Shown in pieces: positions 1,678 to 7,767 of a stretch of DNA of 64,000 bases. Source of the DNA: an uncultured Bacteroidales bacterium (GTDB lineage Bacteria > Bacteroidota > Bacteroidia > Bacteroidales > P3). The position numbers and the translations under genes were made by a program. The DNA lies in the NCBI GenBank assembly GCA_947165255.1, contig CAMUZR010000009.1, positions 1 to 64,000 of the forward strand. The letters are read 5' to 3'. Every line of letters starts with the position of its first letter. The first letter of the stretch is position 1. Below the pieces are notes generated by a model that saw only the letters and a program-made list of their open reading frames with translations, was not told the DNA's origin and did no database searches.

Positions 1678-3762
1678 CTACTTGTCCATGGTGAAGAGGA
1701 ATTCCTCGTTGCTGCGGGTGGGTGCCATGTTTTTGAGGAGGAAATCCATAGCCTCGAGAGGTGTCATGTCGGTGAGCAGGTTGCGCAGAGCCAGAATGCG
1801 GGAGAGCATGTTCTTGGGAACCAGAAGGTCGTCGCGGCGGGTGCTGGAAGCAGCCAGGTCGATGGCCGGATAGATGCGCTTGTTGGCCAACTTACGGTCG
1901 AGTTGCAACTCCATGTTGCCAGTGCCCTTGAATTCCTCAAAGATGACGTCGTCCATCTTGCTGCCGGTTTCGGTAAGGGCGGTGGCAATAATGGTGAGCG
2001 AGCCGCCATTTTCGATATTACGGGCGGCACCGAAGAAACGTTTGGGCTTTTGAAGGGCGTTGGCCTCGACACCACCGGAAAGGACTTTGCCCGAAGCGGG
2101 CTGGACGGTGTTGTAGGCACGAGCCAAGCGGGTGATGGAGTCGAGAACGATAACCACGTCGTGGCCGCACTCGGTGAGGCGTTTGGCTTTTTCCAAAACG
2201 ATATTGGCAATACGCACATGACGGTCGGCCGGCTCGTCGAAGGTGGAGGCAATGACTTCGGCCTTGACGCTCCGCTGCATGTCGGTGACCTCTTCGGGGC
2301 GCTCGTCGATGAGAAGGACCATGAGGTAGACTTCGGGGTGGTTGTAGGCAATGGCGTTGGCCACTTCCTTCAGGAGAGTGGTCTTACCGGTTTTGGGCTG
2401 TGCCACGATCAGGCCGCGCTGTCCCTTTCCGATGGGCGTGAACATATCGATGATGCGGGTGGAGCGAGTCTCGCTGGGATGGCCGGTGAGTTTGAATTTC
2501 TCCTCGGGGAAGAGGGGCGTGAGCGATTCGAAGGGGACACGGTCGCGAATGCGGTCGGGATCCAGGCCATTGACTTCGATAATCTTAGCCATGACAAAAT
2601 AGCGGTCGTTTTCCTTTGGAGGACGAACCATACCGCGGATGGTGTCGCCGGTTTTGAGGCCGAAATTATGAACCATCTGAACGGATACGTAGACGTCGTC
2701 GGGCGAAGCCAGATAGTTATAGTCGGAAGAACGCATGAAGCCGTATCCGTCAGGGGCCAGTTCTAAAACGCCTTCCACTTCTACAACGCCTTCGGTTTCG
2801 AAAGGATAGACTGGCTTAGGAGCAGTTTCGACCTCTGCATTCTGGTTATCGCCAGATTGGGATGGGGCACCTGCCTTGCCGTGCTTACGGTCGAACTTTT
2901 TCACCCATACCTTCTTCACTGGCTCGGTGGGCTCTTTAGTAAGTTCGGCGGGTTGCACCTCGGCAACGGGCTCCTCGGCAGCAGGCGCTTCGGTTTCGAC
3001 AGGACGGCTGGAGGCTACTGGCTGCGCATTGGGGCGGATGTGTTCGCGATGTTTTCGCGCCTTGGGAGCATCGCTATCTGTTTCGGAGGCCACGGGAGCT
3101 GGGGTGACAGCTGGAGTGGCATCTTCTTGAGGCTCTTCTTTTTTTGGCTTGTCGTCTTTAGGTTCCTCGGTTGGCTGGGGGACGGGGGTGACTGGTTCGG
3201 CAGGAGCCGACTTGGCATCGGATTTCTTTGGACGGCCACGTTTTTTCTTCTGAGGGGCACTTTCAGCAGGAGCGGTCTCGGATTCGGTATTTTGAGCTTC
3301 GTCAGAGGTTGCGCTCTCGCCCCTACGGATAAGGTGGCCAGATGGGCTGACCACATCTGGCACATTGGGAATGACGGGGATTTCTAAATCTTCGATATTG
3401 ATGCCTAGGGAGTCAAGGTCGATGGGGGAAGTAATGTCTTTGTTGACTAAGGTGGTGGGGTGATCGGACTGAGCCGAGGATGCCTTACGGCTGTGTTTGT
3501 GAAGCTCGGGATTGTTCATTGAGGACTCGGCCAGGAGGGTTGGTTTGATTCTAGCACGTTTGGGACGCGATGCGGCAGCTTTTTCTTTTTGCTGCATTTC
3601 CTGCTCCTTGGTAAGGGCTTTGGGGTTCTCGGACTGTAAGGCTATAATCTTGTAGATTAAATCCTGAGGATTGAGCGTTGCGGCACCTGCTATACCTAAT
3701 TCTTTTGCGATATTGATGACTTCGACCTGTGCCTTCGCCTCTAATTCTGATTTGCTATACAT
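1678..3762 (-). CDS. rho: Transcription termination factor Rho with long low-complexity N-terminal insertion
   Basis: [27 protein letters not shown] Walker [30 protein letters not shown]; Pro/Glu/Lys/Ala-rich insertion after the N-terminal region; ends on TAG. Confidence 0.96.
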
Positions 3763-3944
3763 ATAATAATATGTGCTATGATGTTTTTGAAAAAATTGTA
3801 TGCCAATAAAATATTAATGGAACGCCTTGATTTCCAGTATTTAAATCTAGAAAATACCTCAAATCCTGACGACTTTTGATGCTACAAAAATAAAAAAAAA
3901 ATCTCACATGGACAAAAAAATTTTGTTGAATGGACTAAAATTTG

Positions 3945-3952
3945 TACTTTTG
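3945..3952 (+). promoter_or_regulatory. Bacteroidota -7 element (TACTTTTG) upstream of gcvH
   Basis: TAnnTTTG match at suitable distance from the CDS. Confidence 0.6.
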
Positions 3953-3997
3953 CAGAAAATTTAAGAACAAATAAAAAACACTTAATTAAGTAATACA

Positions 3998-4375
3998 ATG
4001 AACATTCCTCAGAATTTAAAGTACACCCAGGACGACGAATGGGTAAGAGTTGAAGGTGAATTTGCTTATGTTGGTATCACTGACTATGCTCAACACGAAT
4101 TAGGCGACATCGTTTTCGTAGACGTTGACTGCGAAGGTGAGACCATCGATGGCGGCGAGGCATTTGGTAGCCTTGAGGCCGTAAAGACCGTGGCCGACCT
4201 TCTCATGCCCGTCACCGGCGAAGTGGTCGAGTTCAATGCCGACCTCGAAGAGGCCAGCTCCATTAATAACGACCCCTACGGCGCAGGCTGGATCATCAAG
4301 ATCAAACCCGCTAACGTAGCCGACATCGACGGCCTGCTGGACGCCGAAGCTTACAAGGCAAAAATCGGTGCTTAA
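3998..4375 (+). CDS. gcvH: Glycine cleavage system H protein
   Basis: [34 protein letters not shown]; lipoyl-lysine context [14 protein letters not shown]; size 125 aa. Confidence 0.97.
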
Positions 4376-4400
4376 TCACATTTAGGCATACACACTCTAG

Positions 4401-4436
4401 TCAGCGCCCCGTCCCTGTCGGAGCGCTGATTTTTTA
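4401..4436 (+). terminator. Intrinsic terminator of gcvH
   Basis: TCAGCGC...GCGCTGA stem followed by TTTTTTATT. Confidence 0.85.
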
Positions 4437-4503
4437 TTCTCTCCCCCACCCTGCCGCCCTGCCCTACCAGACCATTTTCTATTGAGCTCCTGTCCGTCGC
4501 CCC

Positions 4504-4542
4504 GCAAAGTAGAAAAAAAGTGGCAAAGTAGGAAAAAAAGTG
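4504..4542. repeat. Two tandem copies of a 19/20-bp unit GCAAAGTAG(g)AAAAAAAGTG
   Basis: 4504-4522 and 4523-4542 nearly identical, directly upstream of a -7 element. Confidence 0.75.
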
Positions 4543-4550
4543 TATATTTG
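4543..4550 (+). promoter_or_regulatory. Bacteroidota -7 element (TATATTTG)
   Basis: TAnnTTTG match; precedes structured region 4551-4763. Confidence 0.6.
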
Positions 4551-4763
4551 CAATGGATTCGGAACATATTGTTCTCAATCCATTTTATTGAAATACGAAG
4601 CGTTATGCTTTTCTTGTGTCTGAAAACGTGAGAAATTTTCGATGTAATGCAAGAAAGTATGATGGTTCGCGCAATTAGCGTGGACTGTTTGCTGCATCTT
4701 CATTACAAGGTTTTTCTCACGACCCTCAGACAAAGAAGTGGTATATCAGCACCACGCTTCTTT
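4551..4763 (+). ncRNA. Putative structured non-coding RNA or long 5' leader
   Basis: Hairpin AATGGATT/AATCCATT; long-range stems TGTCTGA/TCAGACA, CGTGAGAAA/TTTCTCACG, TGTAATG(c)AAG/CTTCATTACA; terminal hairpin AAAGAAGTGGT...ACCACgCTTCTTT. Confidence 0.55.
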
Positions 4764-4807
4764 ATTGACTGCTCTTGGGGTGCTGGAGAGTAATAATCAG
4801 TAAGAAA

Positions 4808-5506
4808 ATGAAACGATTATTGTTTGTTGTTTTTCTGTTTATTTCATACGTGAGCCTTGCTCAGGATGATGTAACCAAGTTCCTCGGTATCCCCGTTGAC
4901 GGAACAAAAACTGACATGATTCAAAAACTTAAAGAAAAGGGTTACACATACAATTCCCAATTGGATTGCCTAGAAGGTGAGTTCAATGGTTACAATGTAA
5001 GATTACATGTTGTAACCAATAATAATAAGGTATATCGAATATTAGTAGAAGACGCTTTTGGGGTGAATGAAACAGCAATCAAAATTAGGTTCAACAATTT
5101 ATGTAGGCAATTTGGACGGAACAGTAGATACTCAGGCATAAAAGAAAATCAAGAAATACCTGATAATGAAGATATCTCATATGAAATGATTGTTAACAAT
5201 AAGAGGTATGAGGCCATCTTTTATCAAACAGAAATGACCATTGATACAGATTTATTTAAAAACACTATTTTGGAGTTTGCAAAAGGGAAAATATCAGAGA
5301 ATGAATTGGCCGAACTATCTGATAGTGAAAAAGAACAGCTAGTAATGGTTGTTTTAAATGAGTATCAAGATGAGTTCAAAGAGTATTACGTGGCCAATAA
5401 TCCTTTGAAAATAGTATGGTTTACTATTGCTGAACTATATGGTGACTATCGCATCGCTATGTATTATGACAATGAGAAAAATAAATCTAATGGTGAGGAT
5501 TTATAA
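4808..5506 (+). CDS. Hypothetical secreted protein (signal peptide), AT-rich gene
   Basis: MKRLLFVVFLFISYVSLAQ signal peptide; supplied ORF begins at 4775 but the signal peptide Met is at 4808. Confidence 0.75.
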   Translation: MKRLLFVVFLFISYVSLAQDDVTKFLGIPVDGTKTDMIQKLKEKGYTYNSQLDCLEGEFNGYNVRLHVVTNNNKVYRILVEDAFGVNETAIKIRFNNLCRQFGRNSRYSGIKENQEIPDNEDISYEMIVNNKRYEAIFYQTEMTIDTDLFKNTILEFAKGKISENELAELSDSEKEQLVMVVLNEYQDEFKEYYVANNPLKIVWFTIAELYGDYRIAMYYDNEKNKSNGEDL

Positions 5507-5518
5507 TTAACAATCAAA

Positions 5519-6133
5519 ATGAAGAAAAAAATTATTATTTATACCTTGACTTCCTTTATCCTCATGGGTTGTGGTAGTAGTACTGAGAAGAAAGTGGAGA
5601 AACTATTAAAAGAAGAAATCCAAAGCACCTTGTACTATCCAGAGAGCTATGATCCTGTAGAGACCACAATTGATAGTGCTTTTTCGCCTTTAGATAATTC
5701 AATTTACTTGAACCACTTTATATTGCTAACAGAGATAAGTGGTGAATTGAAAAAATTGGAATTTAGAGCCGACAGGAGTAAGTCAAGCATGGCTATATGG
5801 GGCAATAAAGGATACTATTACTCTGATTTTGAAAGAGCACAATATCAAGAAGCAAAAAAGGAATATGACAATGTTTTGGTTCAAAAAAAGATGTTACAAA
5901 ATAAGGTAGAAGAGATTCTCTTAGAAATGCAAGAAATTGTTGAGGAAGGAGTGTATTTTATTGGTTATAAAGCAAATCACAGATATAGATCAAAGACTAA
6001 TACTGGGGAAATCACTATAAATGACTTGGTCATATTACTGGATGAAGATATAACTGAAGTAATAGCCACATACGATGCCGTCCATTATAATGGCATACAG
6101 GAAGCAATAGAGTTCATATCAAATTACCAATGA
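5519..6133 (+). CDS. Hypothetical lipoprotein, AT-rich gene
   Basis: Lipobox-like ILMGCGSS at N-terminus; closely follows previous ORF. Confidence 0.75.
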   Translation: MKKKIIIYTLTSFILMGCGSSTEKKVEKLLKEEIQSTLYYPESYDPVETTIDSAFSPLDNSIYLNHFILLTEISGELKKLEFRADRSKSSMAIWGNKGYYYSDFERAQYQEAKKEYDNVLVQKKMLQNKVEEILLEMQEIVEEGVYFIGYKANHRYRSKTNTGEITINDLVILLDEDITEVIATYDAVHYNGIQEAIEFISNYQ

Positions 6134-6235
6134 AAACTTTTGAGTGGGGAAAAACTGCGTAAATATAAGCGATAAGGACATCCTACAAGCATTCAAGACA
6201 TTGTAGCAGCCTAACTTGACATTCATTGATAAGTA

Positions 6236-6271
6236 AAAAACGTCTGCAAGCATTGGTTTGCAGACGTTTTT
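6236..6271. terminator. Bidirectional intrinsic terminator
   Basis: AAAAACGTCTGCAA...TTTGCAGACGTTTTTG hairpin. Confidence 0.85.
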
Positions 6272-6294
6272 GTGTTATGCTATAACGAAATGGG

Positions 6295-7767
6295 TTAGTA
6301 GGCGCGGGCGAAGATGACGCGGCGGTGGGAGGGTTTGCCTGTGAGGATGCACTTGCCTTCCTCTTCGGGGGCGTCGTAGGGGATGCAGCGGATGGTGGCC
6401 TTGGTGAGTTCCTTGACCTTCTCCTCGGTCTCGGTGGTGCCGTCCCAGTGGCAGAGCAGGAAGCCGCCCTTCTCGATCTCGGTCTGGAACTCCTCCCATG
6501 TGTCCACTTTGCGGGTGTTGGCGGCGCGGAAGTCGGCGGCACGCTGGAAGAGGTTCTTCTGAATCTCCTCCATCAGGCTGAGCACGTGGTCGGCAATGCC
6601 CTCGATGGGCATGGTAATTTTCTCCAGAGTGTCGCGGCGGCAGACTTCGCAGGTGCCGTTCTCTAGGTCGCGGGGGCCAATAGCCAGACGGACGGGCACG
6701 CCCTTAAATTCATACTCGTTAAACTTCCAGCCGGGTTTGTACTCGGTGCGGTTATCGTACTTGACGGTGAGGCCTTTGGCCTTGAGGGCGTCGATGATGG
6801 GGGCGATGTGGGCGTCGAGTTCGGCCATCTGCTCACTGTTCTTGCAGATGGGCACGATGGCCACCTGGATGGGGGCCAGCTTGGGCGGCAGGACGAGGCC
6901 GTTGTCGTCGGAGTGGGTCATGATGAGGGCACCCATCAGTCGGGTGGAGACACCCCATGAGGTGGCCCAGACGTATTCGAGCTGGTTCTCCTTGTTGAGG
7001 AACTGGACCTCGAAGGCCTTGGCAAAGTTCTGCCCAAGGAAGTGGGAGGTGCCGGCCTGCAGGGCCTTGCCGTCCTGCATCATGGCCTCGATGCAGTAGG
7101 TGTCGAGGGCACCGGCGAAACGCTCATTGGGCGACTTGACGCCACGAACCACGGGCACAGCCATCCAATTCTCGGCAAAGTCGGCATAGACATCCAGCAT
7201 ACGGCGGGCTTCGGCCTCGGCCTCTTCGCGGGTGGCGTGGGCGGTGTGGCCTTCCTGCCAGAGGAATTCGGCGGTGCGGAGGAACATGCGGGTGCGCATT
7301 TCCCAGCGGACGACGTTGGCCCACTGATTGCAGAGGATGGGCAGGTCGCGATAGGATTTAATCCAGTTCTTATAGGTGCTCCAAATGATGGTTTCGGAAG
7401 TGGGACGAACGATGAGTTCCTCCTCCAGTTTTGCGGCAGGGTCGACCACCACACCAGAGCCGTCGGGGCTGTTCATCAGGCGATGGTGGGTGACTACGGC
7501 ACACTCTTTGGCAAATCCTTCGACGTGTTCGGCCTCACGGCTGAGAAAGGATTTGGGGATGAAAAGGGGGAAATAGGCATTTTGGTGGCCGGTAGCCTTG
7601 AACATATCATCCAGAGCGCGTTGCATTTTTTCCCAAATGGCATAGCCATAGGGCTTGATGACCATACATCCGCGGACGGCCGAATTTTCGGCCAGGTCTG
7701 CTCTTACAACTAACTCGTTATACCATTCGGAATAATTTTCGGAGCGCTTTACAAAATCTTTTGCCAT
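6295..7767 (-). CDS. proS: Prolyl-tRNA synthetase (archaeal/eukaryote-like short form)
   Basis: [46 protein letters not shown]; class II motifs [28 protein letters not shown]; start chosen at MAKDF (7767). Confidence 0.95.

Follow-up and report, generated by a model that had tools for sequence, protein, structure and literature searches.

The segment at 4552 to 4792 of a contig from an uncultured Bacteroidales bacterium is probably the 5' leader of an mRNA transcribed from a promoter at 4543, and it probably serves as a conformational switch, as one member of a dispersed Bacteroidota family that would gate mostly exported or accessory genes. Comparison among copies shows a strand-specific RNA fold, a leader position, three competing and conserved pairings, a wide distribution and a preference for exported proteins. 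From these we infer that the competing pairings are put to regulatory use, at transcription (through a helix adjoining a U-rich tract) and/or at translation (through a pseudoknot whose 3' end is some 16 nt from the ATG).

Architecture of the leader and its locus

The window is the whole 64,000-nt stretch that was analysed (positions 1 to 64,000), which forms the beginning of contig 9 (CAMUZR010000009.1) in the 2.93-Mb assembly GCA_947165255.1 (genome label G000). Within it, the leader has gcvH as its upstream neighbour and is followed by two genes of unassigned function and then by an opposite-strand gene that, from its open reading frame (ORF), reads as proS (prolyl-tRNA synthetase). All leader features, and the two genes that follow, are on the plus strand. 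A Bacteroidota-type -7 promoter box, TATATTTG (4543 to 4550), is recognized from its sequence and from family-wide box statistics, and transcription would start a few bases past it, at the foot of a 5' hairpin (4552 to 4584) predicted by folding. The hairpin is formed by AATGGATT (4552) and AATCCATT (4577) with the inner pairing GAACA/TGTTC; among copies the hairpin is retained and its sequence varies.

The conserved rod of about 168 nt (4597 to 4763) was delimited with covariance models R1 and R2, and scores 175.5 bits with R1. Its helices are P1 (4597 to 4603 with 4754 to 4760), P1b (4604 to 4607 with 4742 to 4745), P2 (4617 to 4623 with 4726 to 4732), P3 (4627 to 4634 with 4714 to 4721), P4 (4644 to 4654 with 4697 to 4706) and P5 (4663 to 4672 with 4678 to 4687), and its nearly invariant unpaired bases include A4625-A4626, T4637, C4723-C4724 and C4752-C4753. 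The apical right strand, GCGTGGACTG (4678 to 4687), pairs with the apical left strand in P5 or, alternatively, with 4747 to 4757. This 3' strand, CAGCACCACGC, is common to the pairings with P1, with the apical right strand and with the loop of the 3' hairpin. Directly 3' of it lies a terminator-like U-rich tract (4758 to 4766), and then the 3' hairpin (4768 to 4792), whose loop GGTGCTG (4779 to 4785) is complementary to CAGCACC (4747 to 4753).

Much of this had been noticed in a sequence-only reading of the region, whose -7 element, 5' hairpin and three long-range helices, TGTCTGA (4617)/TCAGACA (4726), CGTGAGAAA (4627)/TTTCTCACG (4713) and TGTAATGcAAG (4643)/CTTCATTACA (4698), are all present. 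Its description of the region as heavily structured agrees with folding far beyond chance: the minimum free energy of 4543 to 4807 is -94.8 kcal/mol, versus -59.7 ± 4.1 kcal/mol for 200 dinucleotide shuffles (z = -8.65, 0/200). A 205-nt slice of the leader has a z score of -6.5, and the most extreme value among 158 other window slices is -3.9. The same reading ended the element at 4763, whereas the structure continues to about 4792, some 16 nt short of the ATG.

No ORF explains the region, as had been stated: those of at least 50 amino acids (aa) that overlap it are other-strand ORFs of 52 to 68 aa and the TTG-extended frame of the downstream gene. That first downstream gene (4808 to 5506) begins with ATG and encodes a putative exported protein of 232 aa; the product has homologues behind other leader copies, confirming the gene as real. 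The second gene (5519 to 6133) encodes a putative lipoprotein of 204 aa and is probably cotranscribed. The segment at 4494 to 7061, which takes in the leader, the two genes and part of the gene after them, is 98% identical to a relative (G030:C174, L324), and the adjacent gcvH side (3317 to 4479) is just 86% identical to the same genome. This step in identity likely marks a recombination tract with its border just upstream of the leader promoter.

Conservation, distribution and downstream genes

Compensatory changes, whose absence from homologous regions the earlier reading had taken to speak against its structured element, are abundant. When 58 copies are aligned with MAFFT alone, without structure, 28 of the 47 predicted pairs show two-sided compensatory change; the number is 38 of 47 in a model-based alignment of 100 diverse copies, which is biased toward the model structure. 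In the 100 copies, the covariation score is 0.635, versus 0.198 ± 0.005 for shuffled alignments and at most 0.11 for slid controls, and 94.4% of cells are paired (71.9% when shuffled). Frequent G-U pairs (one P5 pair is U-G in 84 of 99 sequences) identify the sense strand as the structured one.

The order of elements is constant: -7 box, 5' hairpin, rod, U-rich tract, 3' hairpin and, about 55 nt on, a same-strand ATG. Of 186 copies, 164 have a TAnnTTTG-type box no more than 80 nt upstream of the rod, at two preferred distances (5% for random places), and in 149 the 5' leader folds below -3 kcal/mol. A local 5' hairpin, GAAGC/GCTT, was considered and rejected, being just 68% paired within the order. 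Past CACGC, the U-rich tract has a family-wide median of 7 T in 10 nt. The downstream neighbor shares the leader's strand in 232 of 244 cases (95%), a median of 56 nt away, and the upstream neighbor does so in 106 of 233. With a covarying RNA, a promoter of its own and a same-strand gene close behind, the half of the earlier proposal that saw a riboswitch-like leader is well supported.

A second conserved motif lies just 5' of the start codon in about 30 of 264 copies; it reads GCCCGACA...GGG or AAAGTTGCGCCCGACACGnnnnAGGG, or is a GAGCCGACAG...GGC variant. Copies with a pre-ATG motif, which include L013, L019, L047, L051, L067, L081, L082 and others, have it between rod and ATG, where it is possibly a further hairpin. 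In copies L113, L117, L120 and L123, from outside the order, the nearest gene start is 230 to 275 nt away, much farther than in Bacteroidales, so that leader function is less clear in these few; judged by their N termini, the genes behind them look like SusC/TonB-dependent receptors.

The family is widespread and often repeated within genomes. A DNA search recovered three further copies in the source genome, and R1 brought the number to seven in all. DNA matches occur in 53 of 99 relatives, some of them to the short promoter region only; R1 matches 87 of 295 genomes drawn evenly from Bacteroidales (58 of 185 genera), and the broader model, R2, matches 41 of 348 genomes sampled across the phylum, five of them outside the class. 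Copies per genome by R2 reach 39, 30 and 26 (G333, G074 and G233), although some of the weakest R2 hits may come from the antisense strand, because the rod is nearly palindromic; the 9 matches in the source genome correspond to 7 sense copies. Named genomes that contain an exact leader pattern belong to Bacteroides, Phocaeicola, Parabacteroides, Butyricimonas, Prevotella, Alistipes and Porphyromonas; E. coli genomes gave no leader match, and as far as searched, the leader is confined to Bacteroidota.

Some copies are on records filed as plasmids. One of these, in Parabacteroides distasonis (NZ_OY725823.1, L270), lies directly 5' of an annotated DUF4433 gene, with annotated toprim and AAA genes close to it. 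At a divergent copy in the source genome (G000:C16:47307-47460, L128), the U-rich tract abuts the ATG of the next gene, which from its sequence reads like a DNA methyltransferase.

The genes behind the leader are diverse and share a tendency toward export. Signal peptides are called by a crude rule in 183 of 257 downstream genes (about 71%; 57 with a lipobox), versus 12 of 43 window genes; the rule is rough and the contrast is large. Pfam places 139 downstream proteins in 79 families, none with more than three members; among them are Ig-like, BACON, trypsin/HtrA, DnaJ, Sel1, DarT and lincosamide nucleotidyltransferase. This diversity gives no hint of the identity of a ligand. A link to defense systems was rejected, PADLOC matches being scattered. 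The 232-aa product at 4808 to 5506 has no match in Pfam or NCBIfam and is 49% identical to a protein that follows a leader copy in a different family of the order, and the 204-aa protein is 32% identical to one encoded directly behind copy L088.

Gene turnover behind a retained leader is visible at the same proS-side locus of a relative (L325, G021:C26, about 5540 to 5845, corresponding to 4514 to 4819 of the window). There the whole leader, promoter through ATG, is retained with compensatory changes (GCACC/GGTGC to GTGCC/GGTAC), the 5' hairpin is swapped for an unrelated one, and the downstream gene is replaced by an unrelated gene of 420 aa.

Competing pairings of the 3' strand and their interpretation

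The 3' strand (4742 to 4760) has three partners that are never all usable at once. With the 5' strand of the rod, it is 97% paired in P1 and 85% in P1b (100 copies). The second partner is the 3' hairpin, about 25 nt past CCACGC, the loop of which pairs with a stretch that begins just ahead of CCACGC and extends into it. This loop pairing averages 5.74 pairs, versus 4.92 ± 0.065 with permuted partners (178 copies), and occurs in more than 10 Watson-Crick versions, such as AGTTCC/GGAACT, AGCACC/GGTGCT, AGTGCC/GGCACT and AGAGCC/GGCTCT.

The third partner is the apical right strand, whose consensus GCGTGGnCTG can pair with CAGnnCCACGC. Pairing extends to 95.6% of cells, and whichever measure is used, no more than 1 of 500 shuffles reaches the same level. 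The duplex energy averages -16.2 kcal/mol, versus -14.68 ± 0.13 kcal/mol when partners are permuted between copies and -8.05 kcal/mol with a shuffled strand. Because many of its pairs are nearly invariant, most of this helix is backed by conservation and not by covariation. Within the source genome, the C7 copy has CCGTGA matched by TCACGG, the 3' and apical strands having changed together, with P1 weakened to -4.4 kcal/mol; the C16 copy has TCGTGG matched by CCACGA, with P1 at -2.2 kcal/mol; and the C5 copy has a 15-bp version of the pairing. The 3' strand thus mimics the apical hairpin's left strand, much as happens in strand-displacement switches.

The terminal hairpin AAAGAAGTGGT/ACCACgCTTCTTT, which the sequence-only reading had placed at the 3' end, can be drawn here, but it is not conserved: 73% of cells pair, and covariation hardly exceeds that of shuffles. 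Lacking a convincing excess of covariation, this local hairpin was rejected; the 3' strand claimed for it pairs instead with 4597 to 4603 (P1), 4779 to 4785 or 4678 to 4687.

The conservation of mutually exclusive pairings makes the leader look like an RNA switch. Two attributes of riboswitches are found: a conserved RNA structure within a 5' leader and, by sequence comparison, mutually exclusive pairings beside expression signals (the U-rich tract and the nearby ATG). In one state, the 3' strand would close the rod via P1/P1b, and the CAGCACC segment would be captured by the loop of the 3' hairpin, just 5' of the start codon. In the alternative state, the 3' strand would pair with the apical right strand GCGUGGnCUG in a strong helix abutting the U-rich tract, and the 3' hairpin would be released. 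A putative signal (a small molecule, protein or RNA) would bias the choice of fold and thereby set transcription read-through and/or translation start; the ON state could be assigned to either fold, and transcripts may also be cut short at the U-rich tract (4758 to 4766), giving an attenuated RNA.

The same observations might reflect a static leader in which the fold, with no regulated switching, shields or insulates the mRNA, makes it more stable or brings in a processive antitermination factor (put, EAR or LoaP-like). Such a role would suit an element that stands ahead of unrelated genes whatever their function, has a 5' hairpin at the promoter and presents polymerase with a U-rich tract to cross, but it hardly explains why one strand should have three mutually exclusive partners with matching changes, and we consider it unlikely. 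Equally, the promoter and leader might be a repeat behind which genes are swapped, either through homologous recombination of one copy with another or through an attC-like site of folded DNA, with RNA regulation secondary. Gene turnover at the proS-side locus, the near-palindromic rod, the extremely diverse cargo, including resistance-like and toxin-like genes, and the copies on plasmid-filed records are all consistent with a mobile cassette or recombination site. The G-U pairs, pseudoknots and start-codon spacing, however, indicate RNA, some copies retain homologous genes across families, and a nonsystematic look identified no terminal repeats or linked transposase or integrase, making this explanation very unlikely. 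An insertion sequence was suspected because many copies are close to contig ends in fragmented assemblies; the 20 copies examined, mostly in fragmented AT-rich genomes, differ from one another in promoter-proximal context and are followed by diverse genes, with borders compared at one locus.

The other half of the earlier proposal, an independent small RNA of about 200 nt (6S-like or trans-acting) ending at the U-rich tract, has in its favor a promoter of its own, a rod shape, a terminator-like 3' end and the finding that the two 6S models tried detect no 6S RNA elsewhere in the source genome. This half is not supported: the 6S and 6S-Flavo models give no match to the region, the source genome alone has seven copies and some genomes have many more, covarying structure extends past the U-rich tract and runs on to the next start codon, and a same-strand gene start follows in 95% of copies. 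A freestanding RNA is therefore the least probable of these explanations, and a highly improbable one.

The conformational switch remains the preferred reading. Its extension to a phylum-wide switch class, in which many unrelated exported and accessory genes per genome answer to one RNA-sensed signal and the leader doubles as a fixed regulatory socket for gene exchange, is plausible, if somewhat short of an even bet. Bacteroidota dominate the human gut and the rumen, and few regulatory RNA classes are known from the phylum; a conserved leader of this switch-like kind, with up to about 39 copies per genome ahead of genes for mostly exported proteins of unassigned function, would indicate that surface and accessory genes answer to a common signal. 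The covariance model, the three competing pairings and culturable hosts, including copy-bearing commensals such as Parabacteroides faecis, Bacteroides gallinarum and Butyricimonas synergistica, offer handles for finding that signal.

Comparison with known RNAs

Rfam 15 gave no match at the gathering cutoff in the 64-kb window or in 18 related loci. The covariance search with Rfam models, including those for 6S, that the sequence-only reading had suggested likewise gave no match in its region: with the 6S models, nothing reaches gathering level in the window, and even at E values up to 10 nothing appears in 4380 to 4860. Scans of the 98%-complete source genome with the 6S and 6S-Flavo models detect no 6S RNA. 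Like 6S and 6S-Flavo RNAs (RF00013 and RF01685), the leader is a rod-like RNA of about 170 to 200 nt with its own promoter; unlike them, it has no match to their models, is present in many copies and runs into a gene. 6S RNA ordinarily comes from a stand-alone gene, with no more than two copies per genome. An identity as 6S RNA was rejected on the failure of the models and on copy number (7 here and about 39 at most in relatives, with a gene following each).

JUMPstart, EAR and LoaP-bound antitermination leaders are elements common to many operons. The present leader resembles them in being a shared element, but it has a much larger, strongly covarying rod and pseudoknots, precedes mostly single exported-protein genes and matches no Rfam family. 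JUMPstart itself is RF01707 (PMC2864571). Several Bacteroidota motifs are also in Rfam, namely, Bacteroidales-1, Bacteroides-1, Flavo-1 and Bacteroid-trp (PMC2864571); they come from the same phylum, and some occur in leaders, but none matches the window or the 18 related loci. PMC8040213 presents thousands of candidate RNAs (HMP2_*), including many Bacteroidetes structures, some palindromic or upstream of genes; the likeness to the leader, as predicted Bacteroidetes structures, is one of description. Rfam 15 and the open-access literature searched yielded no prior description, although there may be an earlier prediction, for example, in the supplements of PMC8040213 or in other papers. Within these sources, the best reading is that the leader family is undescribed.

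An integron attC site lies after its cassette gene, whereas the leader precedes its gene and has a promoter before it. A closer parallel is with c-di-GMP (GEMM) riboswitches, which are structured leaders with alternative pairings that occur in many copies ahead of unrelated, often surface-related genes. The leader is likewise structured, multicopy, capable of alternative pairings and followed by unrelated genes; it differs in matching no Rfam riboswitch, in being restricted to Bacteroidota as far as searched and in having a ligand that is hypothetical. Because ligand binding is hypothetical, the leader is not filed as a riboswitch, but a second-messenger riboswitch class standing ahead of many surface genes is the most useful analogy for it.
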